From positions 1 through 48,072 of IMG/VR virus record IMGVR_UViG_3300031673_000087: a stretch of 48,072 nt of DNA, one strand, 5' to 3'. The position numbers and the translations under genes are program-made. Under the pieces are notes generated by a model, which was not told the DNA's origin, did not search any database, and saw only the letters and a program-made list of their open reading frames with translations. Source of the stretch: a virus. Below, piece after piece: positions 5,945 to 40,757 of the stretch (within the stretch, counting starts at the first letter, position 1; every line of letters starts with the position of its first letter).

Positions 5945-6072
5945 TTCTCAATCCTTTCTACTGTTTTTCTAAGCACCACACCCGCTCTACTGAATGTGGT
6001 GCTGTCCCGGATAGAAACCGTATGATGATTAAAATGTTTACGGTTTCTGCGACTGTGCCATCCTGTAGGCAC
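5941..6072 (-). CDS. Possible 43-aa basic protein with GTG start
   Basis: An open frame of 43 codons from GTG (6072) to a TGA that overlaps the next ATG (ATGA), the junction type used throughout this genome. The product is very basic and His/Arg-rich (VPTGWHSRRNRKHFNHH). A GGTGA sits about 10 nt upstream. Two strong hairpins lie inside the frame, so the same DNA may be a structured leader instead; both readings are possible. Confidence 0.35.
   Translation of the reverse strand: MPTGWHSRRNRKHFNHHTVSIRDSTTFSRAGVVLRKTVERIEK
5972..6048 (-). promoter_or_regulatory. Two tandem perfect hairpins
   Basis: On the transcribed strand the first hairpin has a 10-bp perfect stem AGAAACCGTA/TACGGTTTCT (6013..6048) and the second a 9-bp perfect stem AGCACCACA/TGTGGTGCT (5972..6003). 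The second ends 27 nt before the ATG of the 51-aa gene. There are no U tracts after either stem. They resemble the other leader hairpins of this genome. Confidence 0.5.
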
Positions 6073-6110
6073 TTTTAAGATTTCACCACTTATTTTTTAA
6101 TTTGTCAGGG

Positions 6111-6428: not shown

Positions 6429-7893
6429 CTATATAAACGCCTCTAATTGTACTATTGATGTACGTTTCTTACTCATCTTATCATAGCCCAAGTCAAAGCC
6501 GATGTAATTACGGCCGTATGCGAGTGCTACCTTGCCGGTAGTACCAGAGCCTATGAATGGGTCGAGTACAAGTCCTGGATGGAATCCTGCGCCACATTGA
6601 CAATCGCTGTAGTCAATAAACTCTTTCGGGATAGTTTCCTTATCCGCAGTATTTCTATATCCTTTTACCGATTGTTCTTCGGGTATCTGTCTTTTGAAAT
6701 CTGTATAGTCTTTTGTAGCTGTTTTCTTATATATCTTCTCTCTCGCCTTCCCACACTTATTACATATCTCTTTTGGACATCCTGCGAGTATCATAGGTGT
6801 GATAAGTTTCTCTGGGAATACGGCAAAATGGTCAAGCCAATCGTCTGTACTACCACATTTAGGGCATTTACGTTTCTCTATTTCTTCACCATATTCTATA
6901 ACAGTAATAGTAACAACCAAATTTCTATCAGTACCCTGAAAAAGTGAATTACATTTATCACAGAAATCGTAATTTGATGGTTGAGTTGGTATATCCCAGA
7001 CACAGCGTTTATTACGTTGCCCATATTTTTCGTTAGCTTCCCCAGATACTATCTCTTGTCTGGTATTTCCCCATCTTTTTCGTGGATTATTTTCTTCATA
7101 GGGTGTGCCTGGTCCACTTCCCTTTTTACTCCAACATTCGTTTCCCCATTTAGATATTTCAAACTGCTGTTCAAAATAATATTTCTGGCTCTTTGTGTAA
7201 AAGTAAACAGGCTCCCAGTCAACAGTGAATCTGTATTTTGAACTCGAGGGCATACAGTTCCGTTTCCACCATACAACTGTATTCCGTTTAATGAATCCAA
7301 GTTCGTCTGTCATCATGAGTGTGAAGCGTTCGGGTATCTGGCAGAGAGATTTGGCGGGAATAGATTCTTCTTGATATGGTTTCTTGTCAGGTACATATAC
7401 CTCTTTTTGCACGTCCTTATTTGCCCATGCGCCCTTACCGCTACCAGCGTACGAGTCTCCAATATTCACAAATACACAGCCCGTTTTCTTCAGCACTCGT
7501 TTTACCTCTACGAATATCTGTTTCAAATGCTGGATGTAGAGTTGGAATGTAGGTTCAAGTCCAAGACTACCACGCCATGCGTTACAGTGGATACAGAATT
7601 GACCTTGTGAACTATTCTTATTTGTTGCTTTCTCACGCCATCCCCTTTTAAATTCTGGATTTCCGGCTTGTAGATTAATTGGCCTTAATTGTTGATTTCC
7701 CCATTCATGCTCACAGTCCGGACCACTATTGTTATTATTGAGGTTATCCCATATCTGCGGCTCAAGTCCGTAATCCCTGAGTCCCCATTTACCAGTAGGG
7801 CGGAGACGTAATAACGCAGTCTATTGACTCGTCATCCAATAATCTCAGCCCTACTCTTGCATCTACCTTATGAGTCTTATTTATCTCAAGCAT
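6429..7893 (-). pseudogene. DNA (N4/N6) methyltransferase, frameshifted in motif IV
   Basis: The gene starts at 7893 (ATG overlapping the previous stop, TAATG) and reads 34 codons to CVITSPPYW, then hits TAA at 7789..7791. The other frame resumes at once with GLRDYGLEPQIWD and runs to the end, including a zinc-knuckle insert (CDKCNS, CPKCGS, CNKCGK), GDSYAGSG and the SAM-binding box DPFIGSGTTG near the C-terminus. Motif order is that of a phage beta-type amino-methyltransferase with SPPYW as catalytic motif. Compared with the usual SPPYWGLRDYG there are about 7 extra bases (net +1). As written the enzyme is split. The downstream part has only non-ATG starts (TTG at 7526). Confidence 0.8.
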
Positions 7894-10270: not shown

Positions 10271-10711
10271 TTATTTAACACCGAGCTTTTCCATTTCTTT
10301 TTCATCAATGACCGCTTCTTTACCATTACTACATTTTAATTCAAACACATCAATGGATTTCTCTCCTATCTTAACAAGTTTGCAAGAATCACCAATGAGC
10401 CTGATGTCTAAATCAACATTATCAAACTTAAAGTTGAACTTCTTCTCGCTTGTTTTTATGTCTCGATATTTTATCTTACCCAAGTGTTTGTGAAATATTT
10501 TGAGTACACCCGAGATATACTTCGGATGTTCAATATAAACATAAACTGATAAAGTATAAATGTAGGTATAATAGAACATTGAACTAAATTCATTAACTTT
10601 TTCTAATTCCTGCTTTATTTCATCCATTTTGTAACAGACTTTATCAAGTTTTTTAATCTCTTCAGCCCAAAAGTGATACTCTTTTATTCTTTCTTCAATT
10701 TGAGGATGCAT
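10271..10711 (-). CDS. Hypothetical helical protein
   Basis: A 146-residue protein. The N-terminal 45 residues are a charged helix, probably coiled coil (IEERIKEYHFWAEEIKKL), followed by a Tyr-rich segment (MFYYTYIYTLSVYVYI) and a basic C-terminal half. The start follows GGAGGGACAATAAG inside the end of the upstream gene. It belongs to a run of three genes with near-identical start contexts (10271, 10713, 10927). Function is unknown. Confidence 0.55.
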   Translation of the reverse strand: MHPQIEERIKEYHFWAEEIKKLDKVCYKMDEIKQELEKVNEFSSMFYYTYIYTLSVYVYIEHPKYISGVLKIFHKHLGKIKYRDIKTSEKKFNFKFDNVDLDIRLIGDSCKLVKIGEKSIDVFELKCSNGKEAVIDEKEMEKLGVK

Positions 10712-10712
10712 C

Positions 10713-10925
10713 TTATTGTCCCTCCTCTTTCTCAGGTACATTTTCTATATCACCATATTTTTCAAGTAAAGGTTCAACTTCATCATAAATACTGTATCCT
10801 TTTTCTAATAATACTGCAGCATTATGAAGTTGACTTCTTCCAATTATTACTGCAGACTGAATATTGCTATTCTTAGTCAGATTGATTTCTGCTCCTTGAA
10901 GAGCTTCTAAAATTGATACTGACAT
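10713..10925 (-). CDS. Hypothetical small protein
   Basis: A 70-residue acidic protein (MSVSILEALQGAEINL, then GRSQLHNAAVLLEKGY). The sequence suggests a short helical bundle. The start at 10925 uses GAGGAGGGAAAATAAG. It is translationally coupled on both sides. No family is recognised. Confidence 0.55.
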   Translation of the reverse strand: MSVSILEALQGAEINLTKNSNIQSAVIIGRSQLHNAAVLLEKGYSIYDEVEPLLEKYGDIENVPEKEEGQ

Positions 10926-10926
10926 C

Positions 10927-11118
10927 TTATTTTCCCTCCTCTTTTTCCAGATAAGCATTGATTATTGAGACAACATTATCAATATTGTCATTAATGTAAT
11001 AACCATCTTCTGAAGAAGTATAGATGATTGCACCCGCTGGTATATTATGGTCTTCTAAAACAGCATGGACTTTCTCTGGGTTAATCCATTTGTCACCTAT
11101 TTTTATCAATCTTGACAT
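10927..11118 (-). CDS. Hypothetical small protein
   Basis: A 63-residue protein (MSRLIKIGDKWINPEKV). It could be a small beta-alpha protein. The ATG at 11118 follows AAAAGGACAATAAG and lies directly after a 154-nt structured element. Being the first gene after that element, it is the likeliest target of any cis regulation there. Function is unknown. Confidence 0.55.
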   Translation of the reverse strand: MSRLIKIGDKWINPEKVHAVLEDHNIPAGAIIYTSSEDGYYINDNIDNVVSIINAYLEKEEGK

Positions 11119-11134
11119 CTTATTGTCCTTTTCT

Positions 11135-11288
11135 GCAGGGCTGTCTGGTGTCTGGCCTTTTACCCTCACTGTCCATTCTATCGGGCTTCAACCCTTCTCA
11201 GCTTTCGCTCCAGTCCACCTGATAGATTAAATAGCCTACTCTTTGCTCATTTTTTGCTACCTGTGAGTTGCACCTACAACAGCCCCGC
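11135..11288 (-). ncRNA. Candidate structured RNA / cis-regulatory leader
   Basis: A 154-nt GC-rich region without a convincing gene. Nested pairings on the transcribed strand are: closing stem GCGGGGCTGT/ACAGCCCTGC (10 bp, one wobble), GGTG/CACC, CTCAC/GTGAG, GTAGC/GCTAT, TCTATC/GATAGA, a GGGTT/AGCCC hairpin, and AGC-GAAA-GCT with a GNRA tetraloop. It ends 17 nt before an ATG, just ahead of the ribosome site. The organisation is that of a multi-stem leader RNA. The pairings were found by eye only. Confidence 0.45.
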
Positions 11289-11291
11289 ATT

Positions 11292-11331
11292 TTCTTCTCG
11301 TTATGGTTTCCTTTAGGGGAGATGAGAAGAA
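11292..11331 (-). promoter_or_regulatory. Hairpin after the exonuclease gene
   Basis: An 8-bp perfect stem TTCTTCTC/GAGAAGAA encloses a CTCCCCTAAAGGAAAC segment that also occurs, with one base fewer, near 670 in the other orientation. It lies 4 nt after the exonuclease stop. There is no U tract, so it could be an mRNA-processing or stabilising structure. Confidence 0.4.
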
Positions 11332-11334
11332 TTG

Positions 11335-11982
11335 TTATTTAAAGTTCTTTTCGAGTTCGTATAATTCACGGCAATGTTTAAATACAAGCCAACCATTAGA
11401 AATATCATCCTTGCTCAGCTTGTGATAAGCGAATGCACCTGTTTCTCTGTTTAGGTGTAGTATATATGTTTCTTTAATATTATTGCCTGTTTGTTCTGTA
11501 TAAGCCTTAGCGTATGCGGACACTTGGATTTTATGATTGGGATAAATACCTTTCCCTGTCTTGAAATCCACCAGCCAGAAGGAAACATTTTTCTTTGCAA
11601 TCAAATCAAGAGTACCACCATATTTATATTTTTCACTGACAACTTTGATTTCACTATCAATATATTCAAGTTTATTATCTTTCTCCCAATCAAGGAAACC
11701 GAGAAATCCATTCTCGGCTTTATCAATATCATTTTTGGAATAATCACTCAGGTCCGGCTCAATGCCTTTGATATGACATTCAATTATGTAATGGGTGAGT
11801 GTGCCGATGTTGGCGGCAGTATCCCTGATTTTATTAGGATCGTTTCCTGCAAGAGCCTCACGTCTCGCCCAAGCTATTAGTGCATTTTTGTCCCATCCAA
11901 GTTGTCCCACAACCGTGGTAACGCCCGGAACTCTTGTGCCGTCCTGCGTGGAATATCGGGTATGAGCTTTAATGTTCGACAT
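11335..11982 (-). CDS. PD-(D/E)XK exonuclease (RecB/Cas4-like)
   Basis: A 215-residue nuclease. Conserved elements in order are NIGTLTHYIIECHIKG (GTxxH...E, about 59-74), YGGTLDLIAK (catalytic Asp, about 120-129), WLVDFKTGKG (DxK, about 136-145) and HKIQVSAYAKAY (QxxxY, about 150-161). This is the phage exonuclease pattern. It sits next to a Rad52-like annealing protein, so the pair should form a Red-like recombination system: it degrades DNA ends and the partner anneals the exposed strands. The start follows AAAAGGAGTAATA. Confidence 0.85.
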   Translation of the reverse strand: MSNIKAHTRYSTQDGTRVPGVTTVVGQLGWDKNALIAWARREALAGNDPNKIRDTAANIGTLTHYIIECHIKGIEPDLSDYSKNDIDKAENGFLGFLDWEKDNKLEYIDSEIKVVSEKYKYGGTLDLIAKKNVSFWLVDFKTGKGIYPNHKIQVSAYAKAYTEQTGNNIKETYILHLNRETGAFAYHKLSKDDISNGWLVFKHCRELYELEKNFK

Positions 11983-11993: not shown

Positions 11994-12794
11994 TTAGAAG
12001 GGTAAGTCATCCTCAAATTCTGGTTCTTCTTCTGGGATGTTATTGTTTTTGGGAACAGGTTCTTTTGTTTCTTCTGGATCAGGGAATACATTCTTTAAAA
12101 GGTTTGTGACGTTCACTGAATCCTGGATATAATCAATAACTTTTGAGGCTTCATTTGACGTTAAAGTTTTCATGCTGTCTACGTCATGGTATAGAAAGGC
12201 AGAAACCGCTCTTTTTGCGTTATCACGACTGACTGTGTTCTTGTCGAATATCGCATAGATAGCACCTATTTGTTTCTCGGTTATTTTGCCATCACCAGAT
12301 TGTTTAGGTGATGGATTATTCGGGGGTGAAGTTCCGGTTGGCGGTAAGTTTCCCCCTTTATATTCACCCTTGTAAACATCGAGACCTACTCCGAGAAAGC
12401 TTGCACCCTTGCAGATTGCGTTCGTTCTTGCTCCTTTGTAGGCATCAGCAACGCATGTATGACCTGTTTTTGTGGTGACTATATGCTTTCCGCCCTCACA
12501 AGAAACTGCATGCTTCTCACTGTCAATCATGAACCACAGTTCCGCCAAAACCACAAGTTCCTTTTTGCCGAGTATCCATTCCTTTACATCAAGACCCCAT
12601 CCTATGCCACATAAACCGAATACATTATTGAGCCTCTCGATAACATAATAGGCATCCAGAGTGGTAAGCTTAAAACCTCTTGAATTGTCCGAGCCGTAAG
12701 CCATTTTATCAAAAGACTCATGCAGTTTCTTTTTAAGTTCTTCTAAATTAATTTTCTTTTTAGCCTCTACATTTGCTATTTTGTTCGTTTCCAT
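11994..12794 (-). CDS. Rad52-like single-strand annealing protein with SSB-like tail
   Basis: A 266-residue protein. Residues about 45-150 match the Rad52/Sak-type annealing core: VFGLCGIGWG, CEGGK, then ADAYKGARTNAICKGASFLG and GLDVYKGEY. A Pro/Gly/Asn-rich linker follows, then a small helical domain (ITEKQIGAIYAIF, about 180-235). The protein ends EFEDDLPF, very like the acidic tip of bacterial SSB, which recruits SSB-binding partners. The function would be annealing of strands made by the adjacent exonuclease. The start follows AAAGGAGAGAACG. Confidence 0.75.
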   Translation of the reverse strand: METNKIANVEAKKKINLEELKKKLHESFDKMAYGSDNSRGFKLTTLDAYYVIERLNNVFGLCGIGWGLDVKEWILGKKELVVLAELWFMIDSEKHAVSCEGGKHIVTTKTGHTCVADAYKGARTNAICKGASFLGVGLDVYKGEYKGGNLPPTGTSPPNNPSPKQSGDGKITEKQIGAIYAIFDKNTVSRDNAKRAVSAFLYHDVDSMKTLTSNEASKVIDYIQDSVNVTNLLKNVFPDPEETKEPVPKNNNIPEEEPEFEDDLPF

Positions 12795-14566: not shown

Positions 14567-15049
14567 ATGAAAAGTAAAATTATTTTAAGATTTATAATAA
14601 TATGCTTGCTTTTTAGTGGGTGTTCGATAACAACTCAAATAAAACCACAAATTGAATATGATGAGAAAATAATTTTAAAGAAAAATTCTTATATTTATAG
14701 GGGTGAAGAATATTATTTCAATAAAAAAGGTCGGGGAATATTAAAAGAATTAACTTTAAATATACCTGAAGCTCAATTTGAATTAAAAGAATATGATAAT
14801 CTTATGAAAACAAAATTATATGAATATGTAATGGTCTCATCGGTTTTTGGATATGGTATATTTTCGTTGGAGAAAAGAGGTGATTATCCAGAAAGCTCAT
14901 TGAAATATGAAAGATATAATACAAATTCAAATATTTGTTTAGGTATTTTAATTTCTTGGGCTATGCTTGATTTTTATAGGGGTTCAAAAGCAGAATATCA
15001 TTTGAGAAAAGCTATAATACTTTATAATAAAACTTTAGATGAAAAATAA
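14567..15049 (+). CDS. Lipoprotein in the lysogeny operon
   Basis: A 160-residue protein with a lipoprotein signal: basic MKSKIILRF, a hydrophobic stretch IIICLLF and lipobox LFSGC (Cys about residue 20). The mature part is charged and has no recognised domain. The ATG at 14567 follows GGGGGTGAGAGTG. It sits between repressor and integrase, so it is made in the prophage state. By analogy with other prophage lipoproteins it may exclude superinfecting phage or alter the host envelope; that is inference. Confidence 0.7.
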   Translation: MKSKIILRFIIICLLFSGCSITTQIKPQIEYDEKIILKKNSYIYRGEEYYFNKKGRGILKELTLNIPEAQFELKEYDNLMKTKLYEYVMVSSVFGYGIFSLEKRGDYPESSLKYERYNTNSNICLGILISWAMLDFYRGSKAEYHLRKAIILYNKTLDEK

Positions 15050-16070
15050 ACCCTCTCTCTTTAAGCGCAAGAACTCTCGATTCTGGTGGTTCTCATGGTA
15101 CACAGATGAAGGACGTATTCAGGGATCATGTCGCAAGCTCAATCTCACAGTTTCAGATTACACAAAAAGCCAAGCTCTTGAAATACTGGTTCAGAAACTC
15201 TCCATAAATGCCCCAGAAACGTCAGAAGTGCCTCAAAAATCGCTTATCTCCCTCAAGGTAGACCTGAGACACAGGTTAATACGTGAAGGTGTCAGAAATA
15301 ACACTATTGAATTATATATGTATTCATTATCTAAACTCATAGAACTATTAGGTGAAGATTATTTATATTCAGATGTGAAGCGTGCCGATGTAAATCAGCT
15401 TCAGGATTATTTGTTTTATCAAAACAGGAGCCCGAACTCTATAAATACATACTGTGCATATCTACACGCCACGTTTGAACGGCTTTATGACGATGAATTG
15501 ATCGAGCGTAATCCGTTTCGTAAATTCAAGCGGTTAAAGGACAGTAGAAACAAGCAGAAATATCTCAATGAAGAAGAACTATCGAGGTTTATGGAAGTAT
15601 TGAAAGGTGAAAAAGAGGCATACCGCAGACTAATTTACATTTATATTTTCACCGGCCGGCGGCGTGGTGAGATATTGGACATTGAACGTAAGGACATCGA
15701 CCTTAAGAATAACTGTTTTAAGGTTATTAATAATAAGGGTAGCGATTTAAAGAAACAGAAATTACCGATACCGTCTGAAATCAGAGAAGATTTTGAGTGG
15801 TTTATGAAAAGGAATCAGTCAAAGAAACCATTCGGGATATTAAAACCTCAGAGCGTATCGCTGATGGTGAAAAGGTATATGAACAAAGCGAAGTTGCCTG
15901 AATCATTGCATCTCCATTCGCTCCGACACTCTTTTGTGAGTCAAGCATCGAAAAATGGTGTTAGTTTATGGGAAATCAAACTTTGGCTGGGACATTCATC
16001 TGTAGTAACGACCGAGATTTATGCTCACGGGGAGGTTGAGAAGACGATTGATATCGGGATAAGGAAATAG
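15039..16070 (+). CDS. Tyrosine recombinase (phage integrase)
   Basis: A 343-residue integrase. An N-terminal arm-type segment (SRFWWFSWYTDEGRI) and a SAM-like core-binding domain (about 75-165) precede the catalytic domain. Catalytic residues are visible: Arg in FTGRRRGEILD, HSLRHSF (HxxR), WLGHSS (H) and EIYAHG (Tyr nucleophile). It overlaps the lipoprotein gene by 11 nt and has no ribosome site of its own, so it depends on coupled translation. It marks the phage as temperate. It is convergent with the methyltransferase at 16071. Confidence 0.92.
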   Translation: MKNKPSLFKRKNSRFWWFSWYTDEGRIQGSCRKLNLTVSDYTKSQALEILVQKLSINAPETSEVPQKSLISLKVDLRHRLIREGVRNNTIELYMYSLSKLIELLGEDYLYSDVKRADVNQLQDYLFYQNRSPNSINTYCAYLHATFERLYDDELIERNPFRKFKRLKDSRNKQKYLNEEELSRFMEVLKGEKEAYRRLIYIYIFTGRRRGEILDIERKDIDLKNNCFKVINNKGSDLKKQKLPIPSEIREDFEWFMKRNQSKKPFGILKPQSVSLMVKRYMNKAKLPESLHLHSLRHSFVSQASKNGVSLWEIKLWLGHSSVVTTEIYAHGEVEKTIDIGIRK

Positions 16071-17045: not shown

Positions 17046-17316
17046 AATCTTCTTTTCTGGATTGGATAATTTTCATATATTTATTAAGGAAATGAGTTAT
17101 GTTGCTTGGAATGATGCCAAAGTAAAGTATATTCTCATTGTAACTTATTGTTTATTATATACTATTATTTTTAGTATAACAAACACTCATACAATATAAC
17201 TAACTTTCTATTATTGAACAAGTAATATTATTTCTGAAAATACAAATTAGCAACATTTTATAGGGGAAAAGTGCCTGAAACCGTCTGAAAAGTATCTGCT
17301 TTAGCAACATAAGATT
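17046..17316. other. AT-rich intergenic region, candidate attP
   Basis: 271 bp without a gene. It contains three copies of AGCAACAT: one inverted (17099..17106) and two direct within TTAGCAACAT (17247..17256 and 17301..17310). The outermost copies form a 10-bp perfect inverted repeat TTATGTTGCT/AGCAACATAA. A TATACTA/TAGTATA hairpin is also present. Repeated short sites in an AT-rich gap near an integrase gene suggest integrase arm sites, but the attachment core cannot be proven from one sequence. Confidence 0.35.
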
Positions 17317-17505
17317 TTATTCCTTCTGATCATCCAGTATCTTATCGAGAGTACCACGTTTATTACTCTTAATTAAAACGTTTCTCATATTATCACATAA
17401 TTTGTTTATAGCATCTTCTATGGTAAGTCCCTCGCCTAATACAACAAGTGACATATCTTCCATCATCCAACGTCCTGATGCTTTATCTTTAGATTTTTTT
17501 ATCAT
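17317..17505 (-). CDS. Hypothetical small protein
   Basis: A 62-residue protein (MIKKSKDKASGRWMMEDMSL, then GLTIEDAINKLCDNM). A short beta segment followed by a helix is suggested. No family is recognised. It is the last gene of the lysis/nucleotide transcript before the candidate attachment region and has two hairpins ahead of its start. Confidence 0.45.
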   Translation of the reverse strand: MIKKSKDKASGRWMMEDMSLVVLGEGLTIEDAINKLCDNMRNVLIKSNKRGTLDKILDDQKE

Positions 17506-17522
17506 TTTCTATTTCTTTATGG

Positions 17523-17595
17523 TAACGAAAAGCAACGGTTTAAAAGCATTTTTCGTTATGATAATGGTAGCTGTTTTATGGGTAGAGTACAGCTA
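17523..17595 (-). promoter_or_regulatory. Two leader hairpins
   Basis: On the transcribed strand come ATAGCTGT..ACAGCTA (7-bp core stem, 17568..17595), then TAACGAAAA/TTTTCGTTA (9-bp perfect stem, 17523..17558). The second ends 17 nt before the ATG of the 62-aa gene. Confidence 0.45.
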
Positions 17596-17635
17596 TCGAA
17601 ACTCCAACTCCTTCCACACATGGTGGGCGAGCTAA

Positions 17636-22900: not shown

Positions 22901-23290
22901 GTCTGTCGGTACAAGATTAAAAACACCTTCTTTAAATCTATCATCACCGATTTGTGTTGTTGTGCCTGTATATAGTGTAGCAGCAAATGTAGTAAATTTA
23001 TCAAGAGGCATACCATCTATTCTTATATCCTCAATTTCCTCAATTTCTCCCTCACAAAAAGCCACTGCAAGGTCATATACTGAGGCAATAGTATCTTCCC
23101 TGTATATATTCTGTCCTTTGACTTTACAATGACCATAAACTATCGGAAGGGCACTTTCTTCTGAGATGCGTATTTCATCTTCACGCACTTTATAGACCGG
23201 GGATAGTTTCTTTTTCTTAGGCTTACCAGTCAGCCATTTTGTTATTTTCCATCCGGCAGCCGCTAAAGTTGCAATCGTTGTTGGTTCCAT
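19955..23290 (-). CDS. Tail tip / central fibre protein (lambda J-like) with inserted DNRLRE-like domain
   Basis: A 1111-residue protein, the largest in the genome. The N-terminus (SALPIVYGHCKVKGQNIY, VAFCEGEIEEIEDIRIDG) and the block WIIFDLLTTTRLGLDL match the J/TipJ baseplate hub. Residues about 125-298 are an insertion resembling DNRLRE domains (LRYDLSELPG, TLTWNNKPA, FNLNTAAKTYLT, SPTLVLHF). Fibronectin-like and stalk regions follow, then a fibre tail with His-rich AHAHSGAGQ and DHGSLDGIGEDDHH typical of metal-binding trimeric fibres. It should contact the host receptor. Confidence 0.85.
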   Translation of the reverse strand: MEPTTIATLAAAGWKITKWLTGKPKKKKLSPVYKVREDEIRISEESALPIVYGHCKVKGQNIYREDTIASVYDLAVAFCEGEIEEIEDIRIDGMPLDKFTTFAATLYTGTTTQIGDDRFKEGVFNLVPTDDAYADSGFPDTAFHWEYANQEFIVKELHVKISGGSELLRSYLRYDLSELPGNLTIDSAELKVMTRYTHTDGAISVWTAATASDWAENTLTWNNKPADDASAVDSSQSLSVNNKIVTFNLNTAAKTYLTTAYQNNSFATLFLKSPGTNVYVTFASTESEYMSPTLVLHFSGGEACGFRNTAYIACTIDTTDERLTNAFNPEFTAYIKGRKIKVWDAVNSDWNVEYSTNPAWIIFDLLTTTRLGLDLTSDDLNVDSFKTVAAYCDVLILNLDNKYEKRFECNIVIDDLDNIKTYLEDILTTFGGFLYSKDGKIHLGIEKAESVDADFALDINNIIAGSFSYSQIPKDKIPNVVKILYTDPEKDFRKVFLRVDDEIDIAERGEVIKEIPCYGINSRSQASRIANHILWKGKLAQYAFKCRVSINQCHVLVGELCEVTHTIPNWTSKKFRIVSTDENLNDEIEIVGEEYVSSLYGDEGIVSGYDEIPVIEDWTELPPATGLTLTETYKMNDDGTYQPQINVAFTIPDYVLGKDKLEFYVWWRASADAYSVSRFVWATGSPIKIDVPGAGTYYVRVQTFVYQPWDIMMRTTDAPEDSIAIVGLGLGVIPAPHGFVWSVADSKAAWTTGIITYKGVKYEINSGATAAPYIYFDRNVDIDDLLPSVTRPAASIDMFVMAYYDSVTGTVEPALSGKIIHAGLLQAHSITANEITTGELITETAQIKNAILTDAKISGTITVGHTDAKCTDPDADQTSVNTATNTAKVQGYTIIEGGYIKTDYLTANNIVTGTLTGRTVQTAASGKRAIMSGADGLYYVYNTDGYEIVRLGYALEEGYLRIQDYPANDIVTINSGNLIIQANAVGHRFTMKLDTVAKVYIDSDGDIWTAKDLDVDGNIACAGTVDGVNIYAHAHSGAGQGGTVDHGSLDGIGEDDHHAESHTIASHSDQVAHDDMVQSYSTFTAQFTATDFSLFTLTVEDGVITSHVQDT

Positions 23291-23297
23291 CTATATA

Positions 23298-25112
23298 TCA
23301 ATTCCTATCTGGCTTTTGCGGTAACAATGCAAAGCCTCCCATATTTTGCCAATTATTAAATTTGAATCTGCAATCCTTAGAGTTTTTATTACACCCACGT
23401 TTTATTGTATATGTATCAGTATCCGAAGGTGTATCATCAAGGGGTATGTAAACCTCTACTTTACCCGAAGCGGAAACGGAATCTTTTACTAATCTCTTCT
23501 GACCATCACAAGCACCCGATGTAAATTCTATTGTTCCGTAGTTCCAATAATCGTCAGACTCGGTTCTATTAGTTGTATCAAATATTACAGATGTTGAACA
23601 GCCCACAGTGGCTTCCCCATTAGTTTCTTCTGTGATGTCATTTATTAATTGTCGATTTGCTTTTGTTAATGTTGCTTCAAATATTCTAATATCCGAAAGA
23701 GCCAAATTTCCATAAGTAGCTAAACATCTAAAAAAATCCAGATCGTCAACTGCAAAAATAGTTTGTACATTGATTATAATATTACATCGTGCGGTTGATG
23801 TTAGTGTTGCCGTATATTCATTATTTATATAAGTATAAGAACCGACAAATCCATGTGCTGTTACTATAGAACTATCAATACTTACAGAATGAGCACCACC
23901 AGAATCAAAAGATATAATCGTTTCATTTGCAGAATGAGGATTAACCCAGAGAGATACAGCCTTTAAACTTGCGCTAATATCACCTATATCAACATAATCA
24001 TCCGTACCGTCGGCTTCCATTTCCTCATCTTCAATCTCAAAACGACCTTCTGAGTATGTTGGTATGTGACATATTCTACCATGATTATCATTCCCACTTA
24101 CATCTGCGGTCTGAATTTCTTTTACCGAAACATCGTCAACATAGAAAGACTTGCCGGCATTTGCTGCACTGGTTGGGTGAACATAAACCCGGATAGTTGT
24201 TGATGTTGCATCTACCGTACGAATCCCAGTTAATTTGACCCAACTGCCGTTTGAAAATAATACAGGAGTGAAATCACCATTAAAGAAGAGATAAAAATTT
24301 GATGCTGCTAAATCTAAACCTCTTACCCAAGCAGTAACTTTATATGTTTTACCGATTGTAAGCCCTGATATTGTTTGTCGTATCCCTCCCGATGTTCCGC
24401 TTCCATCTAAGGTAATCTTTCTTGAATATGTTCCGCCATGAGCTTGCTCTGAACTTTGTACATTAGCGGCTGGCGATCCATCATCTGTCCAATCACCGTC
24501 AAATTCCATAGTACCATTTCTTACAAGCTCATCTCCATAAATTTCATGTGCTTTGTCAAGAGGCCACCATCCCACAAGATTATCAACAGGCCCGGAAAAT
24601 CTGTTACATTCCTTACTTCCAAATATATGAGGACAATTCCCTTGATACATACGTTTAGGAATATTCTGATTAATTTTATACATAGGTGAATAAACCATTA
24701 TACCAAATGTATTTTCATCAATCACAGGCGCACCCAGATAGCCCTTGAATACTATCATATAATTACTTGCTGAAGCCAGGTAACCGGCAAACACACGTTT
24801 TATTGTAAGTTTTTTGTTTTGAAATGTGTATGTGCGGAGAAGATAATTAGGACTATCTGTGTCGGCAGGATTAGCATTGTCAAACGTAATATTAACCCTG
24901 TCAACCTCATTTGTCATTGTGTTAAGAATCTTACTGAATTTTATACCCCATGCTTTATAAGTATTCCCGCCAGCAGTAGGGAAATTAACATCTTCATTAT
25001 TATCGGTATAATATTTTGTCAGTCCGTCAAGTTCTATCTCTATTAAATAATGAGGTTGGTTTGTTGAACTCTGAGCAACTGTTTCTATTGTAGCTGATAA
25101 TGTTTTCGGCAT
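23298..25112 (-). CDS. Tail-tip protein (DUF2163/BR0599-like) with CBM- and LamG-like insert
   Basis: A 604-residue protein. Residues 1-175 (PHYLIEIELDG, VDRVNITFDNAN, YQGNCPHIFGSKECNRF) and about 510-604 (CSTSVIFD, GCNKNSKDCRFKFNNWQNMG, GFALLP) are the two halves of a DUF2163/BR0599-type tip protein with its Cys cluster. Between them lie a CBM_4_9-like beta-sandwich (about 195-335: ELVRNGTMEF, AHGGTYSRKITL, KTYKVTAWVRG, FYVDDVSVKE) and a LamG-like domain (about 340-490: DNHGRICHIPTYSEGRFE, VSLWVNPHS). The hub is thus split by sugar-binding-type modules. Confidence 0.75.
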   Translation of the reverse strand: MPKTLSATIETVAQSSTNQPHYLIEIELDGLTKYYTDNNEDVNFPTAGGNTYKAWGIKFSKILNTMTNEVDRVNITFDNANPADTDSPNYLLRTYTFQNKKLTIKRVFAGYLASASNYMIVFKGYLGAPVIDENTFGIMVYSPMYKINQNIPKRMYQGNCPHIFGSKECNRFSGPVDNLVGWWPLDKAHEIYGDELVRNGTMEFDGDWTDDGSPAANVQSSEQAHGGTYSRKITLDGSGTSGGIRQTISGLTIGKTYKVTAWVRGLDLAASNFYLFFNGDFTPVLFSNGSWVKLTGIRTVDATSTTIRVYVHPTSAANAGKSFYVDDVSVKEIQTADVSGNDNHGRICHIPTYSEGRFEIEDEEMEADGTDDYVDIGDISASLKAVSLWVNPHSANETIISFDSGGAHSVSIDSSIVTAHGFVGSYTYINNEYTATLTSTARCNIIINVQTIFAVDDLDFFRCLATYGNLALSDIRIFEATLTKANRQLINDITEETNGEATVGCSTSVIFDTTNRTESDDYWNYGTIEFTSGACDGQKRLVKDSVSASGKVEVYIPLDDTPSDTDTYTIKRGCNKNSKDCRFKFNNWQNMGGFALLPQKPDRN

Positions 25113-25696
25113 TATATCACCTCTATAAGCTCAACACTTCTGATTTCGCCCACGTCTTTATAGATAAAATTATTCTCAAAATAATCATCATTGAATCTTG
25201 TGAAGTATGTGCAATAGGCTGTCAAGGCAACGACCCCGCTTTCTGTCGCAGCCCATGAGCCTGTCGGGACGGAAAGTGTCGCAGCCGTCACGGCGGATAC
25301 AGAAAAAGTTCCATCATTGCCCGCTCCCGAACCGCTAACTCTTACATATAAATCTGTGTTGAACCCCTTTTTAACCCATCCGCTCTGGCTGTCAACTATT
25401 GAATCAGTTCCGGCACCGCCGACAACCATTGTTAGCCGAGTTCCTTTTATCATTTGCATAAAATTGGGGAAATAAAAAGATGTATATGCACCGTAGAGTC
25501 CATCAAAGAATACCCTTATTTCATCTATAACCGTATCAGTAAGAGCTTCAAAAGAAAGTATAAATCTGTGTTTTTTACGACTCCATTTCTTTCGTCTCTG
25601 TTCTTTGCCGGATTCAAATTCTGATACTATAGTATTCCATTCAGTAGCGAATTTTGCTACATCTTGTGGAACCCAATTTATATTCCAGTTAGCCAT
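25112..25696 (-). CDS. Minor tail protein (DUF2460/M-like)
   Basis: A 194-residue protein. The N-terminus (KKHRFILSFEALTDTVIDEI, FFDGLYGAYTSFYFPN) and C-terminus (YCTYFTRFNDDYFENNF, VGEIRSVELIEV) match minor tail proteins that assemble at the tape-measure end of the tail tip. A Gly/Ser/Thr-rich segment (about 95-150) is a probable small beta insertion. Its position between tape measure and hub genes agrees. It overlaps the hub gene by one base. Confidence 0.7.
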   Translation of the reverse strand: MANWNINWVPQDVAKFATEWNTIVSEFESGKEQRRKKWSRKKHRFILSFEALTDTVIDEIRVFFDGLYGAYTSFYFPNFMQMIKGTRLTMVVGGAGTDSIVDSQSGWVKKGFNTDLYVRVSGSGAGNDGTFSVSAVTAATLSVPTGSWAATESGVVALTAYCTYFTRFNDDYFENNFIYKDVGEIRSVELIEVI

Positions 25697-25698
25697 AT

Positions 25699-27462
25699 TT
25701 ATTTACCTAATAATCCGTTCCTATCCATATTTTCGTAAACTATACCTACTATTGCATCAGCACTCGGACCGTCAACTTTTACATAAACATCACCACCATG
25801 TGCTGCCTTTCCAACTTTAGGTATTACTTCTGCGGCAGGCGTTGTTTTCTTACCCAATCCTATTAATGATAGTCCTGTTTCGATAGCTTCACCGAAAAAA
25901 TTCTTACTCTCAAATGTGCGTTCATAAAGACGTTCAGCAACCATATCAGAAATCATACGAGCATAAGAATTGTATACATCCATAAACATATTTTTCATGA
26001 AGTTTCCGAATGACATACCGCCTCGCATCATGTTTTCCATAGTATATGACCATGAGGACTGCATATTCCATGAAAGTGTTTGCCACTGACTTGAAATTTC
26101 CTGTGTTGCGGTTTTTGTGGCTGTTTGTAAGCCGAGTAACTGGCTTTCATAAGTTCTTTTCATTCCCATACCGGCACCGGGGAATCCACCAAGTCTGGGA
26201 TATGCCATTGTTGCAGCTTTTGGAATCATCGGAGCCTTGCCAAAATAATATGGAATTGATGTTATAGCTCCTTGCCCCTCTTGTTTTTCAGGTGTCCATG
26301 TACCTTTATGAATTGCTGGCATTCTCGCATAAGCTTCTTTTCTCATTTGAGTAATTCTTTTTTTCTGTGCTTCATAAGCACTCATTAATGCGTTTTGGTG
26401 TGCTGTATCTCCGCCCCAAGAAGGTAATTTTGTACCATATCTTGTTTTTACTCCATACTGAGCAAATTCTTTCTGCCAATTAGTTATCCCATATTTACTA
26501 TAAAGATTTCCTATAAGTTTCCATCCCTCAATTGCTGCTAAAATAGCTTTCGAGGCTGTTTCTATTGCTTTAAAAACGGAAATTATATCATCCTTATGAC
26601 TCCATATTTTTTCCAATCCACCGACAACCTTATCGGAAAATGTTTGAGCAAGAGCGTTAAACGCACCGGATGTTTTCATTTCATTTATTTTATCAATAAG
26701 TAATTGAACTTTATCTTTTAAATATTTGAATACACCGGCTTCCATAACCGCAATCTTGAATAAATCCCATGCATCTTGAATCATTGACATTAAACCTGAC
26801 CAAGTTGTCGCAAGTTTTGCTGTCGCTCCCCTGAATTGACTATCTAATTTTGTCCAAGCTTGCATTATCATACGCCTTGTTTCTTCTGCCGTATATGCAA
26901 CTCCGGCTTTAAAACCAAGCATAGTAGAGACACCTTTATCCCGGAACATATCGGCAGCAGCAGCGCCGGCTGAATACATTCGGATAATTTGACTTGTCGT
27001 ATCTCTAAATGTCATTTTATAAGCAGCAGCAAGATCGCCAATCATAGGCACCCATTCTTTAATTTCATTGACACCGCCCCTCATAACACCGGCAAGAGAT
27101 GTCACCGATTCCATTATTTCCATGAATTTAAAAGGAACTCTTGCTGCATATTTTTGCATTTCTTGAAATAAACGATTACCTTCAGCCTGCGAACGAAGCA
27201 ACGTACTTAAAATTATCATATATTGTTCTGCTGCATCAGCAGCCCCTATAAATGGTTTTATAACCCATCTATTCAAGGCGTATGCTGTGGCTACTGCAAA
27301 GGCTGTAATAGCCAAGGCAGCCCTTTTGAGATTGATGCTGTCAAATTTCTTTTGCACCTTCTGAGCAAAAGTCTGCGTTGTCTTATGCGCCTTCTTTATT
27401 TTTAAATCATAGTCTTTGTCTCTTAAAGTCAAGGCTATATATATTTCAGATAACTTTGCCAT
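25699..27462 (-). CDS. Tail tape measure protein
   Basis: A 587-residue protein with the TMP N-terminal fold: AALAITAFAVATAYALNRW membrane-like helix, RVPFKFMEIMESVTSLAG, VPMIGDLAAAYKMTFRD and a long helical region including ATAKLATTWSGLMSMIQD. The C-terminus has AAHGGDVYVKVDGPSADAIV. It is short for a tape measure, implying a short siphovirus tail. The gene follows the G/T chaperone frames as in other long-tailed phages and overlaps the T frame by 17 nt. Confidence 0.88.
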   Translation of the reverse strand: MAKLSEIYIALTLRDKDYDLKIKKAHKTTQTFAQKVQKKFDSINLKRAALAITAFAVATAYALNRWVIKPFIGAADAAEQYMIILSTLLRSQAEGNRLFQEMQKYAARVPFKFMEIMESVTSLAGVMRGGVNEIKEWVPMIGDLAAAYKMTFRDTTSQIIRMYSAGAAAADMFRDKGVSTMLGFKAGVAYTAEETRRMIMQAWTKLDSQFRGATAKLATTWSGLMSMIQDAWDLFKIAVMEAGVFKYLKDKVQLLIDKINEMKTSGAFNALAQTFSDKVVGGLEKIWSHKDDIISVFKAIETASKAILAAIEGWKLIGNLYSKYGITNWQKEFAQYGVKTRYGTKLPSWGGDTAHQNALMSAYEAQKKRITQMRKEAYARMPAIHKGTWTPEKQEGQGAITSIPYYFGKAPMIPKAATMAYPRLGGFPGAGMGMKRTYESQLLGLQTATKTATQEISSQWQTLSWNMQSSWSYTMENMMRGGMSFGNFMKNMFMDVYNSYARMISDMVAERLYERTFESKNFFGEAIETGLSLIGLGKKTTPAAEVIPKVGKAAHGGDVYVKVDGPSADAIVGIVYENMDRNGLLGK

Positions 27463-28173
27463 TTTCTATAGTCTCTTTTATAATATGTCGTGCCATTAAA
27501 ACTACTCTTTTAAAACATTCAAGTTGATTTTCAATACTGAATAAATCCATAACTATTTTAAGTGATGCAAAATTTATATCAATCGGATCACCCATACCCG
27601 AAACTATCATCTGATTACAAACTATTGCATATATCTCAAATGCCTCTTTGTTTTCAGGCATTATTTCAGGCATACATTTTTCACAAGGTGGTTCTTTTCT
27701 TTTAGCCACGAATACGGCTTTACATTTGTCACAGGGTGTTTTTTTATAAAGCCACTCTGCGACTTCAATCAGTTTTTTGTTTCAGTCTCCTCTTTTGCTT
27801 TTATTATCTCCGGTATGCTATCAATTTTATCGGAAACAAATTCCATTAATTGTGGGTGTTCACCCATAATCATTGCTTTGTTTTCCGGTGTACATTCGAT
27901 AGGATCCTCGTTGTCATCCTCTAACCCTGTCCACTCCACAATGCAATAATCAGCTACTAATATTTCCTTAAGTTTTTCATCATAAAGAATATCCTTATAG
28001 GGAATACCGCCCTTTGCGAGCATGATTTTTTCCTTTAATAGTGTTTTTGCATTGATTCTTTTTAGAGCAGAAGCATTTAATGGGCGTACCGTTATACCGC
28101 TTTTACTATCTGCCATTTCACCCGGCCACGGGAAAAATACACCGGGGTTCATATCCTTGAGATTTATTTTCAT
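27446..28173 (-). CDS. Tail assembly chaperone G-T fusion made by -1 frameshifting
   Basis: The upstream frame (start 28173) reaches TGA at 27769. Two codons earlier is A AAA AAC, a canonical -1 slippery heptamer; slipping there continues as LIEVAEWLYKKTPCDKC, AVFVAKRKEPPCEKC and on to 27446, giving a fusion of about 242 residues. This is the G/GT tail-chaperone arrangement of lambda and many siphoviruses, just upstream of the tape measure. The T part has two CxxC pairs (CDKC, CEKC), a zinc-like knuckle. The T frame has no convincing start of its own. Confidence 0.85.
27769..28173 (-). CDS. Tail assembly chaperone G
   Basis: A 134-residue zero-frame product: MKINLKDMNPGVFFPWPGEM, then ITVRPLNASALKRI and VADYCIVEWTGLED. 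The segment about 10-30 plus VRPL resembles tail chaperones of HK97-like phages that bind the tape measure during tail growth. The ATG at 28173 follows GGAGGTTGATA. Most ribosomes should stop at 27769 and make this form. Confidence 0.75.
   Translation of the reverse strand: MKINLKDMNPGVFFPWPGEMADSKSGITVRPLNASALKRINAKTLLKEKIMLAKGGIPYKDILYDEKLKEILVADYCIVEWTGLEDDNEDPIECTPENKAMIMGEHPQLMEFVSDKIDSIPEIIKAKEETETKN
27772..27778 (-). promoter_or_regulatory. Slippery heptamer A AAA AAC
   Basis: The zero frame reads ACA AAA AAC TGA. A -1 slip gives AAA AAA then CTG ATT, entering a frame open for more than 300 nt. It is exactly placed at the end of the G gene. A weak stem GTCGCAGAGTGGC may lie downstream, but no strong pseudoknot was identified. 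Confidence 0.8.
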
Positions 28174-28185
28174 TATCAACCTCCA

Positions 28186-28605
28186 TTATGCAAGTTTATC
28201 GAGATAACCATCACGAACACGCATCGTAAAACCAATTTCAGCCACTCCGTTTGCATCGACACTCGGCCCGTCAACACTTTCAACAAAAATAGATGCCGCC
28301 GGACTTGTGGACGGTCCCCAATAACCTGATGAACTATAATAAAGTTTTAAACCGGCAACTGCTGTATCATCAATACAATTTGCTATCACTGTAGCAACCG
28401 GAGTTGCAGCACTATCATAATAACCATGAATTGTTATCGAACCACCATTAAGCGCCCCCCTAAAAAAGGTCTTGTTTTCATCCTGAAAAGCATTACCTTT
28501 TTCAATGATATCCCTTGTTAGACCGGAATAATTCCATGTAGCCATTTGGAATAAAGTTCCTGACGTAACAACAACCTTACAATCTATTCCACCTGTAACT
28601 CCCAT
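28186..28605 (-). CDS. Major tail tube protein
   Basis: A 139-residue beta-rich protein (GGIDCKVVVTSGTLFQMATW, KNKTFFRGAL-like ENKTFFRGALNGGSITIHGY, EIGFTMRVRDGYLDKL). Size and position between tail terminator and chaperone genes are those of tail tube proteins; it would polymerise around the tape measure. Ser/Gly/Ala content is high, as in virion proteins. The start follows AAAGGATAGTAAA. Confidence 0.7.
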   Translation of the reverse strand: MGVTGGIDCKVVVTSGTLFQMATWNYSGLTRDIIEKGNAFQDENKTFFRGALNGGSITIHGYYDSAATPVATVIANCIDDTAVAGLKLYYSSSGYWGPSTSPAASIFVESVDGPSVDANGVAEIGFTMRVRDGYLDKLA

Positions 28606-28621
28606 TTTACTATCCTTTCAT

Positions 28622-29011
28622 TTAATTTTTTGTCATAAATACTTTGTATCTAACTGTACATTGCCAGACATTTTCAACACCTGAATCTGGCATAAAAACA
28701 ACTTCTCTTTTCATTTCTACAAATGCATATCCTGTAATTGTCAAATTACACCCATGGTAAACAGCATCAAGTGCTGTATAAGCAGCAGTAACTTCAGCCC
28801 AATCATCACAGAATAAATTAAACTGGATAATGATTTCTTCATTCTGGCTGCCAAGTTTTAAATTGGATGTTGCCGTTATAAGTTCATAAATACCGTATGG
28901 AAGTTTTGTTCCCTGTTTTGCCTGTGCGGGTTGCAAACTTGTTATTGCTTTTTTTAATGTGGCATCCCCACTATATTTTGTATATATGGCATCAAATAAA
29001 CTATCTATCAT
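28622..29011 (-). CDS. Tail terminator / completion protein (DUF3168-like)
   Basis: A 129-residue protein (SLFDAIYTKYSGDATLKKAI, LPYGIYELITAT, EIIIQFNLFCDDWAEVT, VEMKREVVFMPDSG). The pattern of an N-terminal helix, P(Y)GIYE and a central strand pair fits the DUF3168/gp17-like tail-completion family that caps the tail and joins the head. Gene order agrees. The start follows AAAAGGGGC. Confidence 0.7.
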   Translation of the reverse strand: MIDSLFDAIYTKYSGDATLKKAITSLQPAQAKQGTKLPYGIYELITATSNLKLGSQNEEIIIQFNLFCDDWAEVTAAYTALDAVYHGCNLTITGYAFVEMKREVVFMPDSGVENVWQCTVRYKVFMTKN

Positions 29012-29322
29012 TCAAAAGCCCCTTTTGCAATAACCCTTAATTCATTCTGGCTTGTTTCCGTTGCGATAGAGAGCCATGGGAAAGCACGCATTTTTATAGT
29101 GCCTGTTTCAAGCAATCTCCCAACAAAATAATTCGTTCCTACTCTTGCCTCATCGCCTTCTATTTCATATCTTATTGACTCACTTGTATCACCAGAACGC
29201 TTATGCACGATTTCTTTTGCCCGCTCAACTAATAATTCAGACATATTTACAAGAGCTTCTCTTTTTGCCCTATTTTTTGCTTTCAATATTTCTCTTGAAT
29301 AATCTTTTACTATCGCTTTCAT
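29008..29322 (-). CDS. HK97 gp10-like tail-joining protein
   Basis: A 104-residue protein (MSELLVERAKEIVHKRSGDT, SIRYEIEGDEARVGTNYFVG, LETGTIKMRAFPWL). RSGxTxxSIRY and VGTxxxxgxxLETGTxxMxAxPwL are the signature of the HK97 gp10-like family at the head-tail joint. It overlaps its neighbours on both sides (ATGA-type). Confidence 0.85.
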   Translation of the reverse strand: MKAIVKDYSREILKAKNRAKREALVNMSELLVERAKEIVHKRSGDTSESIRYEIEGDEARVGTNYFVGRLLETGTIKMRAFPWLSIATETSQNELRVIAKGAFE

Positions 29323-29642
29323 TTGATTTCTTCACACATAAATATTAATTCTCTGTTCAATTCAATTGTATTAATAACAGATTTTATTTTATAAATCCTG
29401 TCGCCCCATTTAATACGCCATGTACCGTCAATACTATTGCTGAAATACCGTATAGTGATTCGTGTTGTAACTTCTTCTTGAATCTGTTTTGCAGCAAGAT
29501 ATTCCCTGCCCGTCAATGGTTCAATAGCTGCAGGTACATTTTTTATTGTATCAACATAGGTTATTAATTCTTCACCACTTGAACCTGTTGTTGTTGTCGG
29601 CACCTGAAATATTATTGTATGCCTTAATTGTCCTGCTTGCAT
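29319..29642 (-). CDS. Head closure protein (SPP1 gp16-like)
   Basis: A 107-residue protein (MQAGQLRHTIIFQ, YVDTIKNVPAAIEPLTGREY, TTRITIRYFSN, RIKWGDRIYKIKSV). This is the head-tail adaptor family that seals the connector after packaging. It overlaps the connector gene by 19 nt. Length is normal. Confidence 0.85.
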   Translation of the reverse strand: MQAGQLRHTIIFQVPTTTTGSSGEELITYVDTIKNVPAAIEPLTGREYLAAKQIQEEVTTRITIRYFSNSIDGTWRIKWGDRIYKIKSVINTIELNRELIFMCEEIK

Positions 29643-30223
29643 GTGAATATCCTATATGGTATTGTTAGCCGTTCAATCGTATTAAGTTTTTGAATGCTTC
29701 TTATTGCAACAGTATCTTCACGGTTCTCATACATCTCGGCTATCATAACTTTCATAGCCTGTTTTATGTTTTCGGGGACATCTGATTGTTTAGTTCCGTA
29801 CCCAGCAACAAATGTTGTTTTTATAGGATTATTGGTTGCGAGTGTAGTTGAAGGCCATATCTCCCCATAATTCAGTACAGCTCTTCCCGGCTCGCTTACC
29901 GTATCAACATCATAACAACTTGAGCTTAATGTTGCTGCTGTTCCTCCGCTGTCTGTATAAATAATACTTGTAACCGATATTAACGGAGGGCGTGGTATAA
30001 GCAAGGCATTACCATCGGGAAACCAATCGAGATAATACTCAAATGTTTGTTGCAATAACGCACGTTTTAATAAAACATCTTCCGTATATACCGTAGCAGC
30101 TTTTATTAAACTTTTTAAATAAACATCCTGATCACTCTCATCAACATTTAGCCGTAAATGTTCTTTTGCTTCTTTGATAGTAACAGGTTCTATAGTTGGA
30201 GCTGTATTTACTTTTAATTTCAT
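29624..30223 (-). CDS. Head-tail connector protein (gp6-like)
   Basis: A 199-residue protein: APTIEPVTIKEAKEHLRLNV, LKSLIKAATVYTEDVLLKRA, LLQQTFEYYLDWFP, LPRPPL-like LLIPRPPLISVTSIIYTD and VPENIKQAMKVMIAEMYENR. These are the HK97 gp6-like connector blocks that bind beneath the portal. It overlaps upstream and downstream genes. Confidence 0.85.
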   Translation of the reverse strand: MKLKVNTAPTIEPVTIKEAKEHLRLNVDESDQDVYLKSLIKAATVYTEDVLLKRALLQQTFEYYLDWFPDGNALLIPRPPLISVTSIIYTDSGGTAATLSSSCYDVDTVSEPGRAVLNYGEIWPSTTLATNNPIKTTFVAGYGTKQSDVPENIKQAMKVMIAEMYENREDTVAIRSIQKLNTIERLTIPYRIFTCKQDN

Positions 30224-30582
30224 TATAAATTCTCCACTGCATCAATTCTTCTATTAAATTCATTGTCAAGCCTTGTTCGTACAGTATTATCCAATGTTGC
30301 GCTAAAAGTTAAATCATAAGTACCGGTTGTAAGCGTAGCCGGATATTTCAAGTATACTGTTACAACATTGGAAGATAGGCTCGCACCTTTTACCATTTCT
30401 GCAGTTGCATCCGTACCATCCTGGTCTTCTACTGTTACAGAAATACTTGCGATATTAGTTCCATAAGGGATAGCCCCATCATTCAAACTTGCTGTGCTGC
30501 ATGGCTCAAATTCAAATCTATATGGCACATAATTATCGTTGGGTCTCAGGACGATTCTTTCACTACCTTTAATATCTGGCAT
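30223..30582 (-). CDS. Virion-like beta-rich protein
   Basis: A 119-residue protein (GSERIVLRPNDNYVPYRFEF, SISVTVEDQDGTDATAEMV, TGTYDLTFSATLDNTVRTRL). It looks like a single immunoglobulin-like or BppU-N-type beta domain, as found in phage head-fibre or upper-tail accessory proteins. Placed with structural genes it is probably a virion component. Exact family is uncertain. Confidence 0.5.
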   Translation of the reverse strand: MPDIKGSERIVLRPNDNYVPYRFEFEPCSTASLNDGAIPYGTNIASISVTVEDQDGTDATAEMVKGASLSSNVVTVYLKYPATLTTGTYDLTFSATLDNTVRTRLDNEFNRRIDAVENL

Positions 30583-30597
30583 TATTTATCCCTCCCA

Positions 30598-31098
30598 TTA
30601 TACGCCATCATCAGCACCTGAGAGCGTGTATGTTATTTTTAACAAATCATCATCTACACAATGCCGGACTGATGCAAATTTAGAACCGCACCAGAGTACA
30701 TCAGCAGCTACCGTACTTCCTTTTGTGGCAGCACTTACAATCGCAGCACCATAAATCGTGGCGTTGGCATTCATTGTGAATGTAGCCTTATTCCCATTTG
30801 TAACTTCTTTTCCAGAAGCAGCGCCCTCTAAATATTCAGGTCGTGTCGCTTCATCATATTCGGTGTTTTCAGTATATTGAGGAGCTGCATGAGTATCGGC
30901 TGAAGCCGTTGTTGTATTCGTATCAAAAATACAAACATACCATGTAGGCTCATTATCGTCATGGAAAAGAGAATCGAGAGCTTTGTTTACACCCTCATTT
31001 GTGGTTAAATTTTTGCCCTCTGTCTCGCCTATTAGTTTCCCATCTCTCCAATGCTCACAATTAAAAACACCACCAAATTTCATTCCACTTTTATTCAT
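30598..31098 (-). CDS. Virion-like structural protein
   Basis: A 166-residue protein (GGVFNCEHWRDGKLIGETEG, NLTTNEGVNKALDSLFHDDN, PTWYVCIFDTN, ATIYGAAIVSAATKGS). The sequence is rich in Ala, Thr and Asn, as in capsid decoration or fibre proteins. Similar proteins occur among structural genes of uncultured phages, from memory. Start GGGGGTTATAGATA. No enzymatic motif was seen. Confidence 0.5.
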   Translation of the reverse strand: MNKSGMKFGGVFNCEHWRDGKLIGETEGKNLTTNEGVNKALDSLFHDDNEPTWYVCIFDTNTTTASADTHAAPQYTENTEYDEATRPEYLEGAASGKEVTNGNKATFTMNANATIYGAAIVSAATKGSTVAADVLWCGSKFASVRHCVDDDLLKITYTLSGADDGV

Positions 31099-31114
31099 TA
31101 TCTATAACCCCCTG

Positions 31115-32842: not shown

Positions 32843-32845
32843 TAA

Positions 32846-33073
32846 TTACACCTCTTTAACGGTAGCAGTTCTTAATGTCCTTAACTGAACTACAATAGAT
32901 TTCTTTTCTTCCTCAAGAGCATATTGCTTTTTGTTAAATACTGCCGAAGCAACTACACGTTCATCATTAACAGTGGCTAAAGCACCGTCTATTGCTTGTA
33001 ACTTCTGCATGAGGTCAGATGCTTCTAATTTCTGTTCTTGTGTCAATTCAATAAAACTAATTTCCGTTGTCAT
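32846..33073 (-). CDS. Small coiled-coil protein in structural operon
   Basis: A 75-residue helical protein (ELTQEQKLEASDLMQKLQAI, FNKKQYALEEEKKSIVVQLR). It is predicted to form a helical hairpin or trimer. Genes of this size next to fibre genes often encode chaperones or fibre-attachment peptides. The start follows AGGAGATAAAA. Confidence 0.5.
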   Translation of the reverse strand: MTTEISFIELTQEQKLEASDLMQKLQAIDGALATVNDERVVASAVFNKKQYALEEEKKSIVVQLRTLRTATVKEV

Positions 33074-33075
33074 TT

Positions 33076-33288
33076 TTATCTCCTAAAGAATTTGGCTGTT
33101 CTACCCTTCGGTTTCGGCATTATCGCCTTCTCTGGCGGTTCAAGCATTGCGGTTTCGAAATCTTTCTTTTGGCACTCTGGACAAATATCATAATTGTTTT
33201 TTTTGTTTCTGATTGCCGCTAATAATGAAGCATCAATTGTATTAAAGATTTTACCGCATTTTAAACATTTTGCATCTGTTGGTTTCAT
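33076..33288 (-). CDS. Zinc-ribbon protein in structural operon
   Basis: A 70-residue protein with CLKCGKIF (about 8-15) and CPEC (about 36-39), a classical zinc ribbon, and a basic Pro/Lys-rich tail (KPKGRTAKFFRR). Its stop overlaps the coiled-coil gene region and its start overlaps the upstream stop by one base. It may be a late regulator or assembly factor. No family is assigned. Confidence 0.6.
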   Translation of the reverse strand: MKPTDAKCLKCGKIFNTIDASLLAAIRNKKNNYDICPECQKKDFETAMLEPPEKAIMPKPKGRTAKFFRR

Positions 33289-33617: not shown

Positions 33618-33618
33618 A

Positions 33619-38515: not shown

Positions 38516-38530
38516 ATCCCTCACTTTTTA

Positions 38531-38923: not shown

Positions 38924-38936
38924 ATCAGACACCTCC

Positions 38937-39413: not shown

Positions 39414-39432
39414 TATTTATTCCTCCCTTCTA

Positions 39433-40746: not shown

Positions 40747-40757
40747 TTTAAACCTCA

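Follow-up and report, generated by a model that had tools for sequence, protein, structure and literature searches.

Structured non-coding folds have been described in phages by comparative genomics, where, in the available text of PMC2864571, the defining evidence for the motifs is covariation across many copies. One established route to such RNAs in AT-rich genomes is to rank the gaps between genes by their length and GC (PMC6429828). Two further systems invite comparison with the locus described here. One is the TPP riboswitch (RF00059), with its P3 hairpin, CUGAGA box and pyrophosphate-binding P4/P5 half. The other is the bacterial MITE, which the available parts of PMC10969869 and PMC2229807 present as short and non-coding, with inverted ends and a flanking direct repeat.

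Here we analyse a non-coding island in the virus record IMGVR_UViG_3300031673_000087, all 48,072 bp of which form the window. Like the phage motifs it is predicted to fold, but it is a single known copy. It resembles a MITE in length and non-coding character, and possibly in its inverted ends and flanking repeat, and differs in being single-copy and in the weak significance of that repeat. With a predicted TPP riboswitch of one Bacillota genome it shares 28 of 30 nucleotides in the P3-CUGAGA region, although it lacks both a covariance-model match and the pyrophosphate-binding half, and the genes around it are unrelated to thiamine.

Results

Genomic setting

The majority of genes in the record lie on the minus strand, and the phage looks temperate, with an integrase at 15039-16070. 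The large terminase shares ~51-53% identity with its counterparts in phages of Lachnospiraceae and related genera, while relatives of the exonuclease were found mostly in Clostridia MAGs; a host among the Clostridia is therefore likely. A further IMG/VR contig (L056, IMGVR_UViG_3300031565_000338) matches the window at 100% identity across the 19,000 compared bases (23092-42091), and is thus a fragment of the same phage.

A frame at ~46330-47430 (-), flanked by the two terminase genes, small and large, resembles a UDP-GlcNAc 2-epimerase (MKIINIVGARPQFIKYFPI...; named from sequence alone), and a relative, L054, carries ~1.2 kb less at this position. The DNA methylase gene (PF01555) at 7526-7880 (-) looks broken in this record: its N-terminal part is out of frame with the remainder, the ITSPPYW motif running into a stop close to 7790 before the protein resumes in another frame.

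The island occupies a gap within an early, recombination-type gene block that is read on the minus strand and also holds the methylase gene (Table 1). This gap extends for 216 nt (11119-11334) from the exonuclease stop to the next start codon, and is the longest on the minus-strand early side except for 17046-17635. The exonuclease scores E 4e-4 against Pfam PDDEXK_1, just under the family cut-off. Downstream lies a run of small ORFan genes in the same direction as the exonuclease; for the 63-aa product of the first, neither a PHROG nor a viral relative was found. Three successive small-gene starts on the minus strand have similar contexts (10709-10733, GAGGAGGGACAATAAGATG; 10923-10947, GAGGAGGGAAAATAAGATG; 11116-11131, AAAAGGACAATAAGATG), and at two of the three the end of the preceding gene overlaps the ribosome-binding site. 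Within the gap, neither a promoter nor a terminator was seen on the minus strand, and both flanking genes share one direction, in keeping with an intercistronic element.

Table 1 Features of the exonuclease-proximal gap and its surroundings
Feature	Position	Strand	Basis or remark
Rad52-like annealing protein, upstream of exonuclease	11994-12794	minus-strand block	family match at cut-off edge
PD-(D/E)XK exonuclease gene, directly upstream of gap	11335..11982	-	phrog_298, E 1.6e-33
Upstream hairpin UUCUUCUC / GAGAAGAA, same gap	11292..11331	-	predicted in context, z -2.3
Structured non-coding island, 156 nt	11134..11289	-	folding, stem uniqueness
P1, closing stem, 12 bp with two G-U	11278-11289 with 11134-11145	-	folding
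P2, GGUG / CACC	11271-11274 / 11147-11150	-	pair probabilities 0.96-1.0
P3, CUCAC / GUGAG, inside P2	11263-11267 / 11165-11169	-	pair probabilities 0.96-1.0
P4 hairpin, GGUAGC / GCUAUU, 20-nt A-rich loop	11230..11261	-	pair probabilities 0.66-0.88
P5 arm, UCUAUC / GAUAGA, plus inner helices	11177..11226	-	pair probabilities 0.73-0.98
AGC-GAAA-GCU tetraloop hairpin, within P5 arm	11200-11209	-	predicted fold
P6, small hairpin GGU-AAAAG-GCC	11154..11164	-	pair probabilities 0.95-0.97
GAAAA repeat, directly after the 12-bp end and directly before the opposite end	11129..11133 and 11290-11294	-	possible target-site duplication
Shine-Dalgarno AAAGGA of next small gene, directly behind P1	11126..11131	-	sequence
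63-aa ORFan gene, directly downstream of gap, ATG at 11118	10927..11118	-	ORF

Composition and predicted fold

The island core has a GC content of 0.506, compared with 0.366 for the whole window. As sorting of gaps by length and GC recovers structured RNAs, a GC island in an AT-rich phage counts towards such an RNA. The initial annotation had reported a gene-free, GC-rich island ending at a ribosome-binding site, and all three properties hold; the relevant strand is, however, the minus strand, the sense of the early operon. On this strand nine helices are predicted, with pair probabilities mostly 0.8-1.0 and those of P1 at 0.95-1.0, the terminal U-A pair excepted. The prediction reproduces the GAAA tetraloop hairpin previously proposed. 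The proposed closing stem is likewise present, although with 12 bp including two G-U pairs rather than 10 bp.

The thermodynamic folding check suggested in the initial annotation reveals a minus-strand excess over shuffled sequences. The 154-nt island has an MFE of -50.1 kcal/mol (z -3.68, none of 200 shuffles as good; z -3.56 with 400 shuffles), compared with -37.8 (z -1.70, about -1.7 to -1.8) on the plus strand. A z of -3.56 would rank about 7th among the 312 non-overlapping 154-nt minus-strand windows, i.e. within the upper 2-3%. On neither strand of the window is there a 12-bp stem other than P1 that has 7 or more GC pairs and spans 100-250 nt; shuffled windows contain 0.14 such stems per strand. 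The excess over shuffles is larger for other gaps (z -4.8 for 5945-6094; z -4.4 for 42518-42637). The island thus folds better than chance, yet not uniquely so within this phage.

These two gaps have features of their own. The gene-free gap 5945-6110 (-) contains three strong hairpins (GUGCC..GGCAC, AGAAACCGUA..UACGGUUUCU and GCACCACAUUC..GGGUGUGGUGC; 0/200 shuffles) and gave no credible match in Rfam. At 42518-42637 (-), a very stable hairpin AAACGGCAGUGUGGUG / CACCAUCACAUUGCCGUUU with U's behind it immediately precedes the 42143-42517 gene and is terminator-like.

Coding potential

The ATG-initiated frame of the island has an LLR per codon of -0.149, below the range of -0.016 to 0.243 found in the small genes of the phage. 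GC at the three codon positions is flat (0.46, 0.47, 0.51) compared with 0.46, 0.36 and 0.29 in genes. Pfam and PHROGs gave no match to the island frames tested, and tblastn of the island in phages returned a sole match at E 10. A protein-coding gene was rejected on the absence of codon bias and of any protein family in those frames. A reading frame containing one stop begins with an ATG (11290) and extends to a TAA directly ahead of the next start codon.

Search for relatives

BLAST in phages and plasmids gave nothing beyond short chance matches. Exact 19-mers had zero matches in IMG/VR, a search from which the record of the window itself may be missing. A degenerate GNRA pattern found 13 loci there, none of which matched the covariance model. 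Among ~20 exonuclease-bearing relatives (viral contigs and genomic loci), none with readable sequence has the island; wherever the downstream sequence is readable, the next gene lies directly or closely behind the exonuclease. The single-sequence covariance model, applied to loci as well as to 19 virus records and 404 genomes, gave chance-level matches only. The best of these falls inside a 457-aa ORF, read as a UvrC homologue, and was dismissed as chance; a 23-nt match in genome G144 was dismissed as part of a zinc-ribbon codon run. The whole genomes sampled, ~1,300 in partly overlapping draws and mainly from Bacillota and Clostridia, yielded no homologue by BLAST or the covariance model.

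Rfam searches with 601, 182 and 53 nt, at the gathering score and at E <= 10, gave nothing credible. The best match to RF02003 (Group II intron domain I) is at chance level (8.7 bits, E 7.8, sense strand), and a Group II intron fragment was rejected, since 30 Clostridia loci retrieved with RF02003 show no significant sequence similarity to the island. Hammerhead-like letters noticed by eye near CUGAGAA were dropped, two core positions being off the consensus, as was a retron, with no reverse transcriptase among the proteins scanned.

A TPP-like stretch in the P5 arm

A 30-nt stretch, GGAGCGAAAGCUGAGAAGGGUUGAAGCCCG (11182-11211, query 79-108), provides the best match outside this phage, 28/30, which lies in a Bacillota genome (G568) with E 6.7e-6 for that genome, or ~0.007 by multiplication over ~1,086 BLAST-searched genomes. 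The matched site is the P3 hairpin with the CUGAGA box in what is predicted to be a TPP riboswitch, whose 41.5 bits do not reach the gathering score of 54.3. The orthologous site in a second, related Bacillota genome is 90% identical over 31 nt, with a TPP score of 43.8 bits. The loci L070 (1489-1586) and L101 (1488-1586) hold orthologous TPP riboswitches with scores under the Rfam gathering threshold; the gene that follows in L070 is a HAD-like phosphatase frame.

In the island, CUGAGA stands next to a P3-like hairpin, and GGAGCGAAAGCUGAGAA at 11195-11211 (-) aligns to the TPP loci. TPP-like local pairing of the P5 arm is predicted to cost 2.3 kcal/mol. The TPP covariance model itself gave no match at E <= 10 on 601, 182 or 53 nt, and the pattern of the pyrophosphate-sensing half (GAUnnGGnUAAUnCC) is absent from both strands of the window. 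Membership of the TPP family fails, and the stretch is treated as a putative convergence or fragment.

Discussion

The position of the island, its strand preference, its predicted fold and its lack of a coding signal were all established by computation. Folding excess on the sense strand, high pair probabilities, elevated GC and the absence of codon signal support a structured RNA. Our tentative interpretation, quite possible in our judgement, is an intercistronic structured RNA element on the sense strand of the early operon. The earlier proposal of an uncharacterised phage RNA fits insofar as the island is a non-coding structured candidate that folds on the sense strand, shows no codon signal and matches no Rfam class.

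In the proposed model, the island would be transcribed from the minus strand within a polycistronic early mRNA. Its branched nine-helix fold, closed by the 12-bp stem, would lie between the recombination genes (annealing protein and exonuclease) and the small-gene block. Such a compact fold could separate two translated segments, and may protect or mark the 3' end of the exonuclease message. The downstream ribosome-binding site would be held just outside P1 and remain mostly open, and opening of P1 would allow it to re-pair in part. When the 5' strand of P1 is kept open, the central Shine-Dalgarno bases are predicted to be unpaired with a probability of ~0.2, down from ~0.9/0.7. Transcription, processing and a regulatory effect on translation are inferred. 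Against an RNA element stand the lack of a homologue and therefore of covariation, a z within the upper 2-3% for this phage, relatives that lack the island, and the failure to detect a promoter, terminator or expression platform of its own.

Absence from relatives is also what would be expected of a MITE-like or other small mobile DNA inserted before the ribosome-binding site, the fold being a by-product of its inverted repeats. The foreign-looking GC, 12-bp ends unique in the window and 5-bp direct repeats placed exactly at both ends fit such an insertion. Repeats of 5 bp with this spacing are found at 0.19% of positions, but the figure rises to 5.7% where the flanks on both sides consist of purines alone. 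This is the case here, next to a Shine-Dalgarno, and makes the repeat only weakly unlikely (0.057). As DNA, the inverted ends TGCGGGGCTGT...ACAGCCCTGCA contain one mismatch in 11; in the sense RNA the mismatched bases form a G-U pair, and the internal branched fold exceeds what a simple MITE needs. No second copy of the island was found in the window or the searched genomes, nor were transposase ends related to those of the island. We consider a mobile insertion somewhat unlikely.

It is unlikely that the island is neutral non-coding filler, such as a decayed insertion or gene remnant, with a folding excess that is a chance extreme of a 48-kb window. The rank of its z of -3.6 (about 7 of 312 windows), the failure to find conservation anywhere and the one-stop frame would be consistent with this. 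However, the island combines high GC with a 12-bp stem that is unique, a well-defined ensemble and a bias towards the sense strand, and the codon statistics oppose a recent gene remnant.

A trans-acting small RNA processed from the early operon, acting for example on host or defence RNAs, would fit a self-contained fold closed by a 12-bp stem and a gene block that also has methylase and recombination genes. With neither a promoter or terminator of its own nor homologues found, this appears distinctly improbable.

The initial annotation also raised a riboswitch-like regulator of the small early genes, a role that finds no support. A ligand-binding leader, possibly with a TPP-like pyrimidine pocket (GNRA-capped P3 then CUGAGA), could draw on the matches in the two Bacillota genomes and on the small predicted cost of TPP-like pairing. 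Nevertheless, even when the short stretch was searched by itself, no riboswitch model in Rfam matched at E <= 10, leaving no ligand family match; no homologue was found that could show covariation, and the TPP P4-P5 half is absent. There is no terminator or U-run, and the Shine-Dalgarno is mostly unpaired in the ground state, its last two bases excepted. We thus regard riboswitch action as very doubtful. A new Clostridia-phage RNA class, in which a captured or reinvented CUGAGA/GNRA half of TPP within the 12-bp closed fold would sense a pyrimidine or other ligand in early infection, is scarcely credible.

As one unreplicated sequence, the intercistronic RNA element matters mainly as a candidate. 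Should the fold be real and used, the early operon of a phage would gain a structured RNA where none was described, and the TPP-like stretch would raise the question of how pieces of riboswitches enter phages.
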